Shown: one piece after another, positions 8,274 through 32,150 of the stretch
Position numbering within the stretch: the first letter of the stretch is position 1
Layout: each line of letters starts with the position of its first letter
Assembly (NCBI GenBank): GCA_015231825.1
Contig: JADGAV010000006.1
Span: 1-64,000, forward strand
Length of the DNA: 64,000 nucleotides
From: SAR324 cluster bacterium
GTDB taxonomy: Bacteria > SAR324 > NAC60-12
Reading direction: 5' to 3'
Translations under genes and position numbers: made by a program
The notes under the pieces: model-generated
Databases searched by the model: none
Told to the model about the DNA's origin: nothing
Seen by the model: only the letters and a program-made list of their open reading frames with translations

Positions 8274-10835
8274 TCAAGCTTTGATTCGCTTCAAGCCCAT
8301 TGGCAGCTGATAGTGTCGCTTGCCTTCATATTGGTAGAGGGCGTTTGCCACGGCTCCTGCTGTGGGAACCAGGCCAATCTCTCCAACCCCTTTGGCACCA
8401 TGGGGGCCGTTGGGATCATTCACTTCAATGCCGATCACTTCCATTTTTGGAGTTTGTTTGGCACGCAAAATTCCGCATTTTCTCAGATTGGTGCTTTCGA
8501 AAAGACTGTCTTTCATTGCCAGATCTTCTGACAATGCGTACCCCAATCCCATATGAATCGATCCCTCAATTTGCCCTTCAAAGAGCGTCGGATTGATAAT
8601 CTTTCCAGCATCATGAGCGGCATAGACCGTGTCGACATTGCCGTCGTCATCGAGGACCACGACCTGGGCTGCATAAGCATAAGAATAATGAGTAACAATT
8701 TTTTCAACATCGGCACCCAATTTTGTCGTCCAGTCACAAATCCAGTGACCTTCATAGACTCGGCCCACCAGCTCTTCCAGTGTCTGTGTTTCCAGATCTT
8801 GTTTCAGCTTTTTTGCCCCGTCAATGATGCAATGTCCCAGCACCGAAGTTCCCCGGGAACCGGTAGTCATGCCGGCGAAAGCTTTTTCAGGAGTTTCTAC
8901 ACGGACTTCAATCAATTCTGGAGAAAGTCCGGTGTTTTCGCAGAGAAACTGCACTCCCATTGTATGGACTCCCTGTCCCATCTCTGTCCAACCATGATGA
9001 AGAACCACTTTGCTGGCGGATTCAATCACAATTTTTATCGTTCCCTCATCCGGCATTCCATTGCCCAGGCCGGTATTTTTAATCCCGCAGGCGAGTCCTG
9101 CGTATTTGGCATTTTCGAAATGCTCTTTAACGGCCAACAGAGCTTTCCTTACGCCGACACCCGCTTCCAGGACCTGTCCGGTGGACGTCGCTTTTCCTTC
9201 TGTCAGAGCATTGTCATACCGAAACTGCCAACGGTCAAAATTCCCCTGCTCGCATAAATCATCAATACAGCTTTCGAGGGCGAAAGTGACTTGATTGACC
9301 CCGAATCCCCGCATTGCACCACAAGGAACATTGTTGGTGTAGACCGCTCGGCTTTCGACATCAACACAGGGAACATAGTAAGCTCCGGTGGCGTGGCCGG
9401 CAGAGCGTTCCAGAACCTTCATTCCAACGGATGCATAAGCTCCGGTGTCTCCGATGATTCGTGCTTTCACCAGGGTCAGCATCCCCTGCTGGTCGCATCC
9501 CAATGTGTATTCCATTTCGAGGGGATGTCGTTTGGGGTGCATGATGATCGATTCCTCCCGAGTCAAAAGCACCTTGACGGTTTTTTTCAAAAGGAACGCA
9601 AAGAGGCAGGCATGTCCCTGGACGGAAAGGTCCTCCTTGCCTCCAAATGCTCCGCCGTTGGGGACAAAAACACCTTTGGTCTGCTCCAGAGTGAGGCCGA
9701 GGAGTTTCGCAATTTGTTTTTGATCCTCGTAGATACCCTGCCCTTGAGAAAAAAATTCGATCCCTTCTCCCCAGGGTTGGGCAATTGAACATTCCGGTTC
9801 CAGAAATCCCTGCTCGATCCGTTGGGTTTTGTATACACCATGACTGATGTAGGCAGTTTGTTTTTCCGCGTCAGCAAAGTCCCCCCGTTTGGTGATCGTT
9901 TCTGAAAGAAGATTTCCTTTTTCATGGATCTTCGTGTTTGCTTTTGCCAGGGATTCATGGGGATCCGTGAGCGGGGACAGCACTTCATATTCAACACGAA
10001 TCAATTGGGCAGCTTCGCGGGCGATTTCCTCACTTTCTGCGACAACTCCTGCCAAAACATCACCGAGATACCGGGTTTCCTCTCCAATATCAACCATCAG
10101 GGGCCAATCGGGCACGATTATGCCCTGAAAACGCTCTCCAGGAATATCTTTTGCGGTGAAAACACGAAGGACTCCCGGAAAGGTTTCCGCATTTTTTGTT
10201 TGGATGGAAAGGACTTTCGCCCGGGGATGTTCGCTCCATTTCAAGGCTCCATAGACCATCCCTTCAAAACGCATATCATCAATGAAAGGACGGTTTCCCA
10301 TTACGGCACGTTCAGCTTGGTAGCGCGCTTGCCGTTCCCCGACTTTTCCTTGGGAAATCATGGCAGGAATCCCCCGATTTTCCTGAAATGCTTTTGCCGC
10401 ATAGAGGATGGAATCGACTATTTTTTTATATCCCGTGCATCGGCATAGATTGGGATTGATTGCTTTTTCTACCTCCTCGCGGGAAGGATTGATGTTTCTT
10501 TTCAGCAACGCTTCCGCCTGCATAACAAATCCCGGCGTGCAGTAGCCACATTGTACGGCTCCTTTTTCTACGAATGCATTGGTGAAAACCTGCTGTCGGT
10601 ACTCCCCCAACCCTTCGGTGGTCGTGACTGTTTTTCCCGCGACCTTTTTCATTGGTATGACACAGGAAAGCAATCCGCGGCTGTCCACATCGACAGCACA
10701 GCACCCGCAGGTTCCCTGGGGGGCACAGCCGTTTTTTGGTGAAAGGATCCCTTCTTCTTCACGCAGGTAATGCAGCAGAGTCGCTTCCGGGTCTCCTTCG
10801 TAGTTTTTTTCGATACCATTTAAAATAAATTTCAT
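8274..10835 (-). CDS. xdh: Selenium-dependent-type xanthine dehydrogenase (fused 2Fe-2S and Mo subunits)
   Basis: The 853-residue fusion matches the selenium-dependent xanthine dehydrogenase group and would hydroxylate xanthine or related purines. The N-terminus is a plant-type ferredoxin (C37, C43, C46, C58 in GCAPQGTCGCC and LLSC) followed by the second 2Fe-2S helical domain (C96, C99, C131, C133 in QCGYC and CRC). The rest is the molybdopterin part: GGAFGGKED, the group-typical AMRGFGVNQ, EMGQGVHTMG, GSRGTSVLG, and the catalytic-Glu segment KGVGEIG. There is no FAD domain in the polypeptide and no FAD-subunit gene beside it, so electrons must leave via another partner, possibly the YgfK relative upstream. 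It is the last gene of ssnA-ygfK-xdh, after a 292-base gap in which I see no gene. Confidence 0.88.
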   Translation of the reverse strand: MKFILNGIEKNYEGDPEATLLHYLREEEGILSPKNGCAPQGTCGCCAVDVDSRGLLSCVIPMKKVAGKTVTTTEGLGEYRQQVFTNAFVEKGAVQCGYCTPGFVMQAEALLKRNINPSREEVEKAINPNLCRCTGYKKIVDSILYAAKAFQENRGIPAMISQGKVGERQARYQAERAVMGNRPFIDDMRFEGMVYGALKWSEHPRAKVLSIQTKNAETFPGVLRVFTAKDIPGERFQGIIVPDWPLMVDIGEETRYLGDVLAGVVAESEEIAREAAQLIRVEYEVLSPLTDPHESLAKANTKIHEKGNLLSETITKRGDFADAEKQTAYISHGVYKTQRIEQGFLEPECSIAQPWGEGIEFFSQGQGIYEDQKQIAKLLGLTLEQTKGVFVPNGGAFGGKEDLSVQGHACLFAFLLKKTVKVLLTREESIIMHPKRHPLEMEYTLGCDQQGMLTLVKARIIGDTGAYASVGMKVLERSAGHATGAYYVPCVDVESRAVYTNNVPCGAMRGFGVNQVTFALESCIDDLCEQGNFDRWQFRYDNALTEGKATSTGQVLEAGVGVRKALLAVKEHFENAKYAGLACGIKNTGLGNGMPDEGTIKIVIESASKVVLHHGWTEMGQGVHTMGVQFLCENTGLSPELIEVRVETPEKAFAGMTTGSRGTSVLGHCIIDGAKKLKQDLETQTLEELVGRVYEGHWICDWTTKLGADVEKIVTHYSYAYAAQVVVLDDDGNVDTVYAAHDAGKIINPTLFEGQIEGSIHMGLGYALSEDLAMKDSLFESTNLRKCGILRAKQTPKMEVIGIEVNDPNGPHGAKGVGEIGLVPTAGAVANALYQYEGKRHYQLPMGLKRIKA

Positions 10836-11127
10836 AAGATTCTCTTTTCCATTAACGACTTTTGCGGTTTGTCCAGATGATCACAATTGCTTCGGGAGAA
10901 TTTCCCTTGTTATCATTTTTTTTCAAATTGTACAAAATGAGATTTCATCTCCTCATTTCTTTCTCACTTTTGATGGATCAGGGGGCAATTTGACTCCCTG
11001 AGAAGAGAGGCTTTTTCAAATTTGGCAAAATGCAATTCGGGCTGTTTGTAAAACAGAAACATCCAATGTGTGGAATATCCTCGGTTTTTAAGGCGAACCC
11101 GGTTGAACACGAAAGATTATCTCCAGA

Positions 11128-13083
11128 TCATTTTCCTCGCAACATGATTGCCGGGTAAGACAATGGTTGATCAATAATGCCATGCAAAAGCGATTTCATC
11201 ACATAAAAGGGATTCATGTCGATGATGCTCTGATCTTTCAAGATTTTGTTTGTTTCCCCCTGCAGTAAGTGGTTTTCGTGATCCAGGGTCATGTCGACTT
11301 CATCAGATTGCCACTTGTAGGTCTCGGCTTGCGTGTCAAAAGAGAGCAAATATTCCTTTCCCTGGAATCGTCCTTGAAGGGAGTTGGGGTTTGGAAAATA
11401 AAATCCGTCATGATCGGGATAAGTGTCGTAGGTGGTCTGATTGAAGAAAAACCGCGGTTTTTCCTGGTAGGGACCGCCATTTTCTGGACAGTATGGGTCA
11501 CAGTCTCCACATTCGTTGCAAAAATCTGCCAAATTGGCAATTTGCGTTTTTTGTTTGAGGACAAAATCATTCCCGGGAATCGGAAGCAGAGATCCCTGTT
11601 CTATTTTAAAATTTGTGGTGGCAGTGCTTGCAGCACCGACCGCGATGTAAAAATTTGCAGCATTGGGGCAGACGGGGAGACACTTGTTGCAGGTAATGCA
11701 GTCAAAAAATCCCAATTGGCTATCGACTCTTGGGGGTTCTTTTTTGTTTGATTCAAAATGGTAATAAGGATTTTCAATCAATCCAGGAACAATTTTTTCG
11801 CTGTTTGCAAAACCGGCATCATTCCTATTTGTAATGTTCTGATCTGCTGCTCTTTTGATAATAAATTCCGCAAGATTTGAAGCGCCGAGTTTTTCCATTT
11901 CCTGTTTCAATGTCTTTAAATAACCTGACATTCGTGTGTACCCTCCCGTTTTGAGCAAATCCGTACAGACTGAAACCGGTTTCATGTTGCAGCTGACGGC
12001 ATCCGCAAAATTTTTGTTGGATATCCCTGCAGAAAATGAAATATGGTAATGTTTCCCCATTGCCATACGAAATTGGTGCATGGCGTTCATGGCGAGAACA
12101 TGGAGGGGTGTTCCGGAAAGATACATGGTCTTGTCTTTGAAATAGGTCTGATTGTTTTTCAACACCAGCGTATTGGTAAATTTGGAACCGATGCTCACCC
12201 CGTGCTTTTCCGCAAATTGCTCCAGTCGTTTCATCATTGCCACACCTTCATCAAATTGAAGATCAACAGGGAAGGCATCAGGATCGACGATTATGTTGGT
12301 GTAGCCTAAATCCTCGCAAAGAGTCTGATTGACAAATTCGTATCCCAACAGAGTCGGGTTTTTTTTAACAATCGTATGAAACTGGTGTTCACTGATCAAA
12401 TGTTCGGTAATCGCTTCAATCTCTTGAGGCGGACAGCCATGGAAAGTCGAGAGGGTGCATGTCTCTGAAATGTGCGGATCGATGGAAAGATTTCTATATT
12501 GCTCAAATTCAGGAGGCAAACTTTGGAGCATGCTTCCAATCGCTTCACCGGCATCTTTCATTTTCTTTAACCAGTTGTGGACCGGAGGCGATGAAATTCC
12601 TTTTAGGTCGTATCCAACAGAAATATCAAAAACGGTGTTGTAAAAGCTATCGCCCCTGGGAACCCCCAGCAATTCCATCTCCTCGATAATCTTCAATAAA
12701 ACCCACGCCATTACATATTCATTGTAGGAATCCTCAAGACGCAACTCCTGTGACCATTCGATATTGTACCCGATATTGCGGGCATCAATGCAGGGACGGC
12801 TGATTTCCAACTGATCCAGAATTTGAATCGTCTTGAGCTCCATGATCCTTCCTCCTCCTAAAAAAGAAAGGATGATATTCTGCACCATCTGCGTATGGGG
12901 GCCTGAAGCAGGTCCAAGCGGAGTAGCTGCCTCTTTGTGATGAAAATCGACGGAAAAATCGATTCCCGGATAACCCCGGTAAAACTTCTTTTTAGGATAA
13001 CCATAAATACTGCCGAAGTTTTCGTATTCAGCCAAGATGGCACCAAGATGGGTTGCCAGCTTCAATCCTGTCAGTTCAGCCAT
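11128..13083 (-). CDS. ygfK: YgfK-like Fe-S protein (putative selenate reductase subunit family), lacking the flavin module
   Basis: The 651-residue protein starts MAELTGLKLATHLGAILAEY at 13083, 13 bases after ssnA. The first ~490 residues are the TIM-barrel-like, dihydropyrimidine-dehydrogenase-related domain of YgfK, including TCTLSTFHGCPPQEIE. Two 4Fe-4S motifs follow: CITCNKCLPVCPNAAN and FCNECGDCDPYCPENGG, then a family-typical C-terminus. E. coli YgfK has about 1,030 residues with an FAD/NAD(P)-binding module between barrel and clusters; here the barrel is joined almost directly to the clusters, so that module is absent. Despite its selenate reductase label, the family clusters with purine degradation genes. 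A longer frame extends upstream into ssnA but without family similarity. Electron transfer to or from the Xdh is inferred. Confidence 0.85.
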   Translation of the reverse strand: MAELTGLKLATHLGAILAEYENFGSIYGYPKKKFYRGYPGIDFSVDFHHKEAATPLGPASGPHTQMVQNIILSFLGGGRIMELKTIQILDQLEISRPCIDARNIGYNIEWSQELRLEDSYNEYVMAWVLLKIIEEMELLGVPRGDSFYNTVFDISVGYDLKGISSPPVHNWLKKMKDAGEAIGSMLQSLPPEFEQYRNLSIDPHISETCTLSTFHGCPPQEIEAITEHLISEHQFHTIVKKNPTLLGYEFVNQTLCEDLGYTNIIVDPDAFPVDLQFDEGVAMMKRLEQFAEKHGVSIGSKFTNTLVLKNNQTYFKDKTMYLSGTPLHVLAMNAMHQFRMAMGKHYHISFSAGISNKNFADAVSCNMKPVSVCTDLLKTGGYTRMSGYLKTLKQEMEKLGASNLAEFIIKRAADQNITNRNDAGFANSEKIVPGLIENPYYHFESNKKEPPRVDSQLGFFDCITCNKCLPVCPNAANFYIAVGAASTATTNFKIEQGSLLPIPGNDFVLKQKTQIANLADFCNECGDCDPYCPENGGPYQEKPRFFFNQTTYDTYPDHDGFYFPNPNSLQGRFQGKEYLLSFDTQAETYKWQSDEVDMTLDHENHLLQGETNKILKDQSIIDMNPFYVMKSLLHGIIDQPLSYPAIMLRGK

Positions 13084-13096
13084 GCTTACTCTTTGA

Positions 13097-14443
13097 TTAA
13101 TTGTTAAACCGATCCCAAACACGCTGAGCGCATTTATGAGATTCAATAGCGATTTTTTCTTCGTCAATTCCAGGCAGGTGTTTATTCTGCATGACCACTT
13201 TTCCGTTGATGATGCCAGTATCCACAACAGCATCACAGATTCCAAACAGAAAATGTCCCCAAAAATTTTCTGAAGTCAAAGGAGTCGGGGGGTAGTAATC
13301 AACGAGAATCAGATCAGCCTGGAAACCGGGGGCAATTTTTCCGACGTTTTGTCCGGACACACGTTTCATGATTGCAGGGTTGTTGCTCAAGACCATCTGC
13401 CGGGTTTCGTTCCAGGCCAGCGTGTTATCTTTCAAGTCGTGCTTTTGCAGCAAAAGTGCGGTGCGTATATCGGGTTTGAGATCCGGAGACATTCCGTCGG
13501 TTCCCATTCCCAACAGGACCCCACGCTTCAAATATGAAAAAATATCGGTGCGGCCCACGGCGTTGTTCATATTCGATTGAGGATTGTGAACGAGCATGGT
13601 GTCTGTTTGAGCGAGGCCATCTTTTTCCTGGTCCGTCAAATGAATACCATGAGCGGTGATGCTCGAAGTTCCTAATATTCCAAACTGCTGCAGCCGATCA
13701 ACCAGTCCTGCATCGTATTTTTCTTGAGTGATCATCCGGTCCTGCGGATCCTCACCGAGGTGAATATGACATCCCTTTTGAAGTGATTGACTGATCGCTC
13801 CGGCTTTTTCCAAAGTGTCATTGTGCAAAGTAAATGATGCATGCAGTCCAATCATTGCGTCGAGAAGGTGGTTTGGGTCTTGAGTTTTGGCCTGTTGACA
13901 TTTTTTGATGTAACGCTCATTTTCCCGCAATCCCTGCTGCGCGACCTCGTTTCCATCCCGATCTGAAATTTCGTAGCAAAGGACACCCCGCATTCCAAGC
14001 TGCTGCAGGGCTTCTTCGATCCGGTCAAGACTGCCATCTACAGCGTTGGGACTGGCGTGGTGATCAATGATGGAGGTGACCCCCTGCTTGATAGCGGTAA
14101 TTGAAGAAAGGAGGGCGCTATAATAGATGGAGTCTGGATCCAGCGCCCGGTCGAGTTTCCACCAAAGCATCGAAAGAATTTCTGAAAAATTCTGTGGAGA
14201 ACCACTCAAGGCGATCCCTCTGGCAAACGTGCTGTAGAAATGCATATGGGCATTGACCATCCCAGGCATCAGCAGGCGTCCTTTACCGTCGATCCGGGCA
14301 TAATCCTGATACTTTATTTTCAAATCCGCCTCGTTCCCCAACTCGTGGATTTTGGACCCCTGAATGGCCAGGGCCTGATCATTTAAAATTCCCTGTTGGG
14401 GGTCATTGGTAAAAATCTTGGTATTGCAAATAAGAATGTTCAT
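13097..14443 (-). CDS. ssnA: SsnA-type metal-dependent amidohydrolase (aminohydrolase)
   Basis: The 448-residue protein belongs to the amidohydrolase superfamily, SsnA branch, next to guanine and cytosine deaminases. Metal ligands are visible: HMH in VNAHMHFYSTFARG near residue 68, H in CHIHLGEDPQD, H in SITAHGIHL and D in LGMGTDGMSPD. The probable activity is hydrolytic deamination of a purine or a purine-derived ring. The ATG at 14443 is preferred to a TTG six bases earlier; no strong ribosome binding site is seen. It is the first gene of ssnA-ygfK-xdh, an arrangement known from selenium-linked purine-degradation loci, and is divergent from allantoicase with a 243-base gap that must hold both promoters. 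Confidence 0.87.
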   Translation of the reverse strand: MNILICNTKIFTNDPQQGILNDQALAIQGSKIHELGNEADLKIKYQDYARIDGKGRLLMPGMVNAHMHFYSTFARGIALSGSPQNFSEILSMLWWKLDRALDPDSIYYSALLSSITAIKQGVTSIIDHHASPNAVDGSLDRIEEALQQLGMRGVLCYEISDRDGNEVAQQGLRENERYIKKCQQAKTQDPNHLLDAMIGLHASFTLHNDTLEKAGAISQSLQKGCHIHLGEDPQDRMITQEKYDAGLVDRLQQFGILGTSSITAHGIHLTDQEKDGLAQTDTMLVHNPQSNMNNAVGRTDIFSYLKRGVLLGMGTDGMSPDLKPDIRTALLLQKHDLKDNTLAWNETRQMVLSNNPAIMKRVSGQNVGKIAPGFQADLILVDYYPPTPLTSENFWGHFLFGICDAVVDTGIINGKVVMQNKHLPGIDEEKIAIESHKCAQRVWDRFNN

Positions 14444-14686
14444 GAGCAAATTTTTTGAAGCGTTGATTTTACTTGATTAAGTTGGGAAATCATTCAGAGT
14501 CGATACTCTAGCATCTACCTAGCCTCTTTTCTAATGATTTGCAAGAAAACTATGTTTGAGTTTTATCGATATTTTTTGTAGGCTTTTTCAAAATATAATG
14601 GCATTTTATTCTTTGTTTTGAGGGTTCAGATCGATTTATTTGTGCACAATATATTGACGGGCTCTTCATTTGAACTGGTAAAATTT

Positions 14687-31622: not shown

Positions 31623-32150
31623 ATGAAAATTCGAAAAGATTTGAAAATCGGTAATTTATTTCCGGAATTTGAACGTCGTGATCAGGACGGCAAAACCAGA
31701 ATACTGAGTGAATTGATGCAGGGATGGCCCACCATTCTCATTTTCTGGCGTGGAGGCTACTGACCCAAAGACATTCTCCAGTTGGAGAATTACAGCCGCC
31801 ATCTGCAGCCTGAATTGCAGGTGAACTATTGTCGGATGGTATCCGTTTCAGTTGATGATCAGGAAGAAACTCGGGAAACTCGTAAAAAAATAGGCGCAAA
31901 CTGGCCGTTTTTGATCGATCATGACCGCCAATTGATCAATGAACTGGATATTGCCGATAATACCGACCCTGTCCATTCACCTGTTCCGATTCCCTATACA
32001 TTTGTTTTGAATGGAAATCGTGAAATTTACAAAATCTACAATGGTTGGTGGTATGTTGGAAGACCTACTGTTGAAGAACTTCGGCAGGATTTGAGAGCTT
32101 TACTGGCAGGTCGGGAAGACTATGTTTACAATCGGGATTGGGATTCTTGA
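31623..32150 (+). CDS. Selenocysteine-containing peroxiredoxin-like redoxin (in-frame UGA read-through)
   Basis: Reading through TGA at 31761-31763 gives a 175-residue thioredoxin-fold protein starting MKIRKDLKIGNLFPEF. Sec would be residue 47 in ILIFWRGGY-U-PKDILQLENY, exactly where cysteine relatives have FWRG..CPKD, the peroxidatic position of AhpC/TSA-type proteins. Downstream similarity continues without a break: NYCRMVSVSVDDQEET, WPFLIDHDRQL, PIPYTFVLNGN and IYKIYNGWWYVGRPT. An ORF caller that treats UGA only as stop would split this gene and start it at a false ATG near 31782. A hairpin suited to SECIS function follows the UGA. It is convergent with an unrecognised gene. Expected role: peroxide or thiol-disulfide redox chemistry. 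Confidence 0.85.
31761..31790 (+). promoter_or_regulatory. Candidate bacterial SECIS element after the UGA codon
   Basis: After the UGA, ATTCTCC (31773-31779) pairs perfectly with GGAGAAT (31784-31790) around the loop AGTT. The loop begins 16 bases after the UGA and has G in its second position and U in its third, which fits the bacterial SECIS pattern (apical loop 16-37 bases from UGA, G among the first two loop bases, GU recognised by SelB). The stem lies inside codons for ILQLEN, so base choice there serves both protein and RNA. Confidence 0.75.

Follow-up and report, generated by a model that had tools for sequence, protein, structure and literature searches.

The window, i.e. the whole stretch of 64,000 nucleotides of SAR324 cluster bacterium DNA that was analysed, carries a gene for a predicted redoxin near its middle (Table 1). 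The reading frame extends from an ATG at position 31623 to a closing TGA at positions 32148-32150, and its sole internal stop is a TGA at codon 47. As described in the initial annotation, this TGA lies within RGGY-TGA-PKD, in a thioredoxin-fold frame that is otherwise continuous. With U for the product of the TGA codon, the N-terminal part of the protein would read MKIRKDLKIGNLFPEFERRDQDGKTRILSELMQGWPTILIFWRGGYUPKDILQLENY... Mechanical ORF calling at this locus yielded just a fragment of 122 residues, which is located after the UGA and has its start at TTG 31782. Ordinary gene calling would therefore truncate the gene, just as the initial annotation had warned.

Table 1. Positions of the redoxin gene, its predicted functional elements and a second selenium-related locus in the window.
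Feature	Position	Strand	Remarks
UxxD selenoredoxin gene (predicted)	31623..32150	+	175 aa plus stop; PF00578 AhpC/TSA fold; full-length homologues 67-75% identical
Active-site codons G44-G-Y-U-P-K-D50 (UxxD)	31752..31772	+	R43 adjoins upstream, 31749-31751
UGA codon 47, predicted to be read as selenocysteine	31761..31763	+	TGA/TGC/TGT at the same codon in homologues; selA/B/C/D in genome
Bacterial SECIS hairpin (predicted)	31773..31790	+	7-bp stem 31773-31779/31784-31790, apical loop AGUU 31780-31783
Pro124, predicted cis-Pro facing the active site	31992..31994	+	invariant in 35 sequences
Family signature YNGWWYVGRPT, codons 139-149	32037..32069	+	Y139, N140, G141, G146, R147, P148 and T149 invariant
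Xanthine dehydrogenase (XDH) cluster	8274..14449	-	
YgfK-like ORF in the XDH cluster	11128..13245		705 aa

The protein matched the Pfam model PF00578 (AhpC/TSA) with 63.1 bits against a gathering cut-off of 26, and PF08534 likewise scored above its cut-off. The AlphaFold model shows a confident thioredoxin-like fold (pLDDT 91.8), in which the selenocysteine (Sec) position directly precedes the helix of residues 48-60. Among solved structures, ResA was the best match by sequence (3c71, E 1.8e-6), and BcpB, Bcp4 and ResA were the best matches by fold. In an alignment of 35 homologues, R43, G44, U/C47, P48, P124 and the signature YNGxxxxGRPT were invariant and K49 was nearly so; judged by the alignment to ResA, Pro124 probably represents the cis-proline of the thioredoxin fold. 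Asp50, encoded by GAC in the window, is present in all Sec members of the UPKD clade and in most homologues with Cys at codon 47.

The AhpC/TSA assignment proposed earlier holds at the level of the Pfam superfamily, but not in the sense of a canonical peroxiredoxin, since the peroxidatic motif PxxxTxxC/U is absent from the redoxin. The corresponding residues are I-F-W-R-G-G-Y-U, with Ile40 instead of a proline at -7 and Gly44 at -3. The second Cys or Sec at +3 by which UxxC and UxxU proteins are recognised is also absent, this position being taken by Asp50, and the protein is thus best described as a UxxD redoxin. None of the NCBIfam models gave a score above its curated cut-off for the window protein or for six homologues. 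Membership in the SelL family was rejected, because the SelL-related model NF040769 reached only 21.5 bits with the window protein, far under its cut-off of 120, and because there is no UxxU motif.

Homologues were collected with an alignment-based scan of genome contigs, in which the best 80 of 427 relatives were retained. At least 23 further homologues from about ten phyla were found to have TGA at codon 47 within RG-x-(Y/F)-U-P-K-D, and about 60 others have TGC or TGT at this codon, so that Cys lies exactly where the initial annotation had placed Sec. Other codons were not seen; while one of the pattern searches required U or C, a separate listing of 42 loci also had no third residue. Among the matches listed, the closest were from Poribacteria (71-75% identity), followed by a Gemmatimonadota MAG (67%). 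The TGA form occurs in Poribacteria, Gemmatimonadota, KSB1, Neomarinimicrobiota, Acidobacteriota, Nitrospirota, Chloroflexota (Anaerolineales), Planctomycetota, Rokubacteria, an alphaproteobacterial MAG and other genomes of the SAR324 order. The TGC/TGT form occurs in Rhizobium, Bradyrhizobium, Acidobacteriota and Bacteroidota, and Cys at codon 47 is also found in plasmid records of Rhizobium, Paracoccus and Calothrix (e.g. RGSFCPKD). A search of 52 genomes from the phylum of the window genome retrieved homologues in which codon 47 is TGA (RGNYUPKD) and, from a neighbouring family, a sister group in which TGA occurs twice (UPKU). A phage origin was rejected, as no match to the redoxin was obtained in the phage records searched. 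Outside the Poribacteria, the redoxin loci compared had no conserved neighbour genes, and the neighbourhoods gave no hint of a substrate.

One base parts TGA from TGC or TGT, and the window belongs to a single draft assembly of 81 contigs. The TGA could therefore be viewed as a nonsense mutation that has turned the gene into a pseudogene, or as an assembly error in a gene for a Cys protein. This view is contradicted by the presence of TGA at codon 47 in at least 23 independent genomes, in genes of 51-75% identity whose frames are otherwise intact, and also by the Sec machinery of the genome and the selectively maintained hairpin that are described below. We consider it refuted by the recurrence of TGA. 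One UPKD homologue (L032/L034; G039 C331) is broken by a frameshift and a TAA in its assembly.

A hairpin with a 7-bp stem and the loop AGTT had been noticed before, and was confirmed at 31773-31790. It starts 9 nucleotides past the UGA and its loop lies 16 nucleotides past the UGA. The 40-nucleotide stretch containing it folds at -8.2 kcal/mol (z -2.3), and 7 of 200 shuffled sequences were equally stable; taken as a single sequence, the hairpin is therefore weak. The published constraints for bacterial SECIS elements are a loop of 3-9 nucleotides, a stem of 4-16 bp, a distance of 16-37 nucleotides between UGA and loop, a G among the first two loop positions and a minimum free energy of at most -7.5 (PMC13188914). 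The window hairpin lies within all of these limits, with a loop of 4 nucleotides that has G at its second position, and with a distance of 16 nucleotides, the smallest that the published range allows. An Rfam search gave no relevant match, apart from one sub-threshold chance match to a snoRNA. The possibility that the hairpin is an intrinsic terminator was rejected, as the region contains three weak terminator sites, about as many as chance would give, and 31773-31790 is not among them.

Closer examination of 23 distinct UPKD-type Sec sequences revealed that the AGTT loop is located exactly 16 nucleotides past the UGA in all 23, and that AGTT is present at the aligned place in 2 of 60 Cys homologues. 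The two sides of the stem covary, with 28 double-changed cells and a covariation value of 0.412 (0.168 +/- 0.027 after shuffling, with none of 500 shuffles as high); these shuffles take no account of relatedness, and the synonymous recoding and the comparison with Cys homologues represent separate lines of evidence. Sliding the stem partner by 1-3 columns abolished the covariation. The compensatory changes include TCTCC/GGAGA, TCGTC/GACGA, TCGCC/GGCGA, GCGTC/GACGC and CCGTC/GACGG. On average, 5.74 of the 7 stem pairs are formed, compared to 3.64 (sd 0.20) under synonymous recoding, where the maximum in 2000 trials was 4.26. In the Cys homologues the average is 2.48 of 7 pairs, and nearly all of these genes are without the hairpin. 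The stem of one Sec homologue (L064) pairs only after a slip of one base, giving the loop AGTTG, and the outermost pair is formed chiefly in the window redoxin's own group. Since the TGA codon and the hairpin both recur across the homologues, and the stem has undergone compensatory changes, their combination goes beyond chance. By these comparisons, the downstream hairpin is under selection and represents a conserved SECIS element.

All four genes for the synthesis and insertion of Sec, the search for which had been suggested as a check, were found in the window genome (5.8 Mb, 81 contigs, 93.5% complete). selA (538.8 bits), selB (382.9 bits) and selD (379.4 bits; L020 1468-2540, G000 C48) scored above their curated cut-offs, and tRNA-Sec (selC; 59.3 bits) scored above its gathering score and was also called by ARAGORN as tRNA-SeC with anticodon TCA. 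In selD, too, the frame is interrupted by a TGA, at codon 21 (KTCGUAAK), and a stable hairpin with the loop GGUC lies downstream of it. This is the position at which Sec is known from SelD, listed as UxxK (PMC9312934). Because selD carries TGA at this site together with a hairpin, it is very probable that the window genome decodes UGA as Sec in other genes too. Among the genomes with the Sec form of the redoxin, 22 of 23 have selB above the cut-off and the 23rd has a piece that scores below it; the corresponding number for Cys-form genomes is 9 of 19.

These results also bear on a different reading of the codon, in which UGA would specify Trp or Gly, or would be generally read through in the lineage. 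Some other bacterial lineages do read UGA as Trp or Gly. In the window, on the other hand, TGA is an ordinary stop codon outside codon 47 of the redoxin, and it ends 17 of the 33 long ORFs. Moreover, the alternative residue in the homologues is always Cys, selB and selC are present in the genome, and the hairpin accompanies the UGA, which makes reassignment or general read-through extremely improbable. Several of the Sec-form homologue genes also terminate with TGA, and the decoding of UGA must therefore depend on its context. The machinery, the recurrent TGA and the covarying hairpin thus all favour the earlier proposal that UGA is read as Sec. Almost certainly, the redoxin is a selenoprotein with Sec at position 47, a prediction for which the comparative support covers the reading of UGA, the SECIS element, the complete decoding machinery and the exchange between Sec and Cys.

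The XDH cluster of the window had been put forward as an independent hint of selenium use. It encodes a protein matching the model for selenium-dependent XDH (TIGR03311; 932.9 bits against a cut-off of 830.45) and an SsnA protein above the cut-off of TIGR03314, so that by family the cluster would be a locus for a selenium-dependent molybdenum hydroxylase. Enzymes of this type contain a labile selenium cofactor rather than Sec. The usual marker yqeB was not found in the 93.5% complete genome. The cluster agrees with the hint as regards its family, but for these two reasons represents side evidence at most. Its YgfK-like ORF scored well below the cut-off and has 705 residues as compared to 1012 for its family; read-through of its TGA as Sec was rejected, because more stops follow soon after.

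In a maximum-likelihood tree, the window redoxin groups with the Poribacteria (100/86), apart from L024 and L064, which belong to another SAR324 family. This placement suggests that the gene was acquired by horizontal transfer. The Sec clade also contains three Cys sequences (L047, L048 and L061), which is a sign of at least two conversions from Sec to Cys. L048 (3042-3086) has a TGC codon and yet keeps a 5-bp hairpin with AGTT, L061 (1255-1299) keeps a partial hairpin, and in L047 (4133-4177) the hairpin is lost. Judged by their sequences, these three genes represent a series of SECIS decay, in which a relic fades after the conversion of Sec to Cys.

We propose that SelB carrying Sec-tRNA(Sec) binds the hairpin with the loop AGUU, 16 nucleotides downstream of UGA-47, and thereby inserts Sec. 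The product would be a thioredoxin-fold redoxin of 175 residues, probably cytosolic, with the active site R-G-G-Y-Sec-P-K-D. Sec47, which lies at the N-terminal end of the active-site helix, would attack either a peroxide or a thiol substrate in its oxidised form, giving a selenenic acid or a mixed selenosulfide. Because Asp50 occupies the usual position of the resolving Cys, completion of the cycle would call for an external thiol, either glutathione or a thioredoxin-like protein. Asp50 and R43 may tune the selenol or serve as acid/base. Homologues that make do without selenium use Cys at the position of Sec47. Such chemistry with one selenol seems somewhat better than an even bet, with the peroxidase or reductase activity, the reductant and the role of Asp50 as its conjectural parts. 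Alternatively, the selenoprotein could act as a thiol:disulfide oxidoreductase with two redox residues, in which Sec47 pairs with Cys70, a residue that is near-invariant among the 35 homologues. Position 70 is, however, occupied by Tyr in the Sec homologues L024 and L064 of the SAR324 order and by Thr in a few Cys homologues. In addition, the topology of the AlphaFold model would place Cys70 just before the parallel strand 71-76, at the end of the sheet remote from the active site. A resolving role of Cys70 is therefore unlikely, and the two-residue mechanism is a doubtful alternative. Overall, a selenoprotein gene that is decoded through SelB and an AGUU-type SECIS element, and that encodes a redoxin with one selenol, is the best explanation of the data, to which we assign a probability of about 0.88.

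Among known proteins, the redoxin shares several features with the selenoproteins of the Prx-like thiol:disulfide oxidoreductase type, namely PF00578, the thioredoxin fold, Sec as the first residue of a CxxC-like motif and a SECIS element just downstream. It differs from their UxxC and UxxU forms in that every Sec member of the window clade has Asp as the second residue (UPKD). With SelL and SelL-related proteins (NF040769) it has the redoxin fold in common, with weak profile similarity. The 1-Cys and PrxQ/Bcp peroxiredoxins (M. tuberculosis BcpB, 5epf; AhpE) include the top fold matches and likewise have one catalytic chalcogen, but the redoxin is without their PxxxTxxC motif. A redox motif at the start of a helix and a Pro at the cis-Pro position are common to the redoxin and ResA of the ResA/TlpA group. 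ResA has a CxxC motif and is membrane anchored, whereas the window redoxin has UxxD and no N-terminal anchor in its reading frame.

The PF00578 selenoproteins in reviews have UxxC, UxxU, TxxU or UGC, and UxxS is given for a related family (PMC9312934, PMC13188914). 'UxxD' is absent from the main text of both of these reviews of prokaryotic selenoproteins, and a text search of the openly searchable literature, where a mention under another name is conceivable, never found 'UxxD' together with 'selenoprotein'. Nine new families are reported in the deep-Sep paper, whose main text mentions neither AhpC nor redoxin. It is thus likely that the redoxin belongs to an uncatalogued Sec-x-x-Asp subfamily from about ten mostly uncultured phyla, with a single selenol and no second redox residue in the motif, a strikingly uniform AGUU SECIS element and at least two independent Sec-to-Cys conversions, one of them with a relic hairpin. 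As the curated NCBI models miss this family, truncated gene calls are to be expected in the genomes that carry it; with corrected calls, about ten lineages, most of them uncultured, would gain a redox selenoenzyme. A biochemical question raised by the UxxD motif is what resolves a selenol redoxin whose motif offers no second Cys or Sec. Together, the UxxD, UxxU, UxxC and CxxD members and the fading SECIS elements would form a compact system for the study of Sec gain and loss.

The nearest Sec sister group of the UPKD clade is a UPKU/UPKC branch (L026, L027, L031 and L065). L026, L027 and L031, from the order of the window genome, have two in-frame TGAs in FYRGxWUPKU and are predicted to encode a redoxin of the diselenide type. 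Their best hairpin has a different sequence and lies farther downstream, with its loop about 30 nucleotides past the first UGA. L065 (4133-4177), from Rokubacteria, is an intermediate member with the active site UPKC. Finally, L028 and L029, from the class of the window genome, are distant Prx-like homologues with an aligned TGA in FYRGHWUPFC, and they are predicted to encode a Sec protein of the UxxC type.
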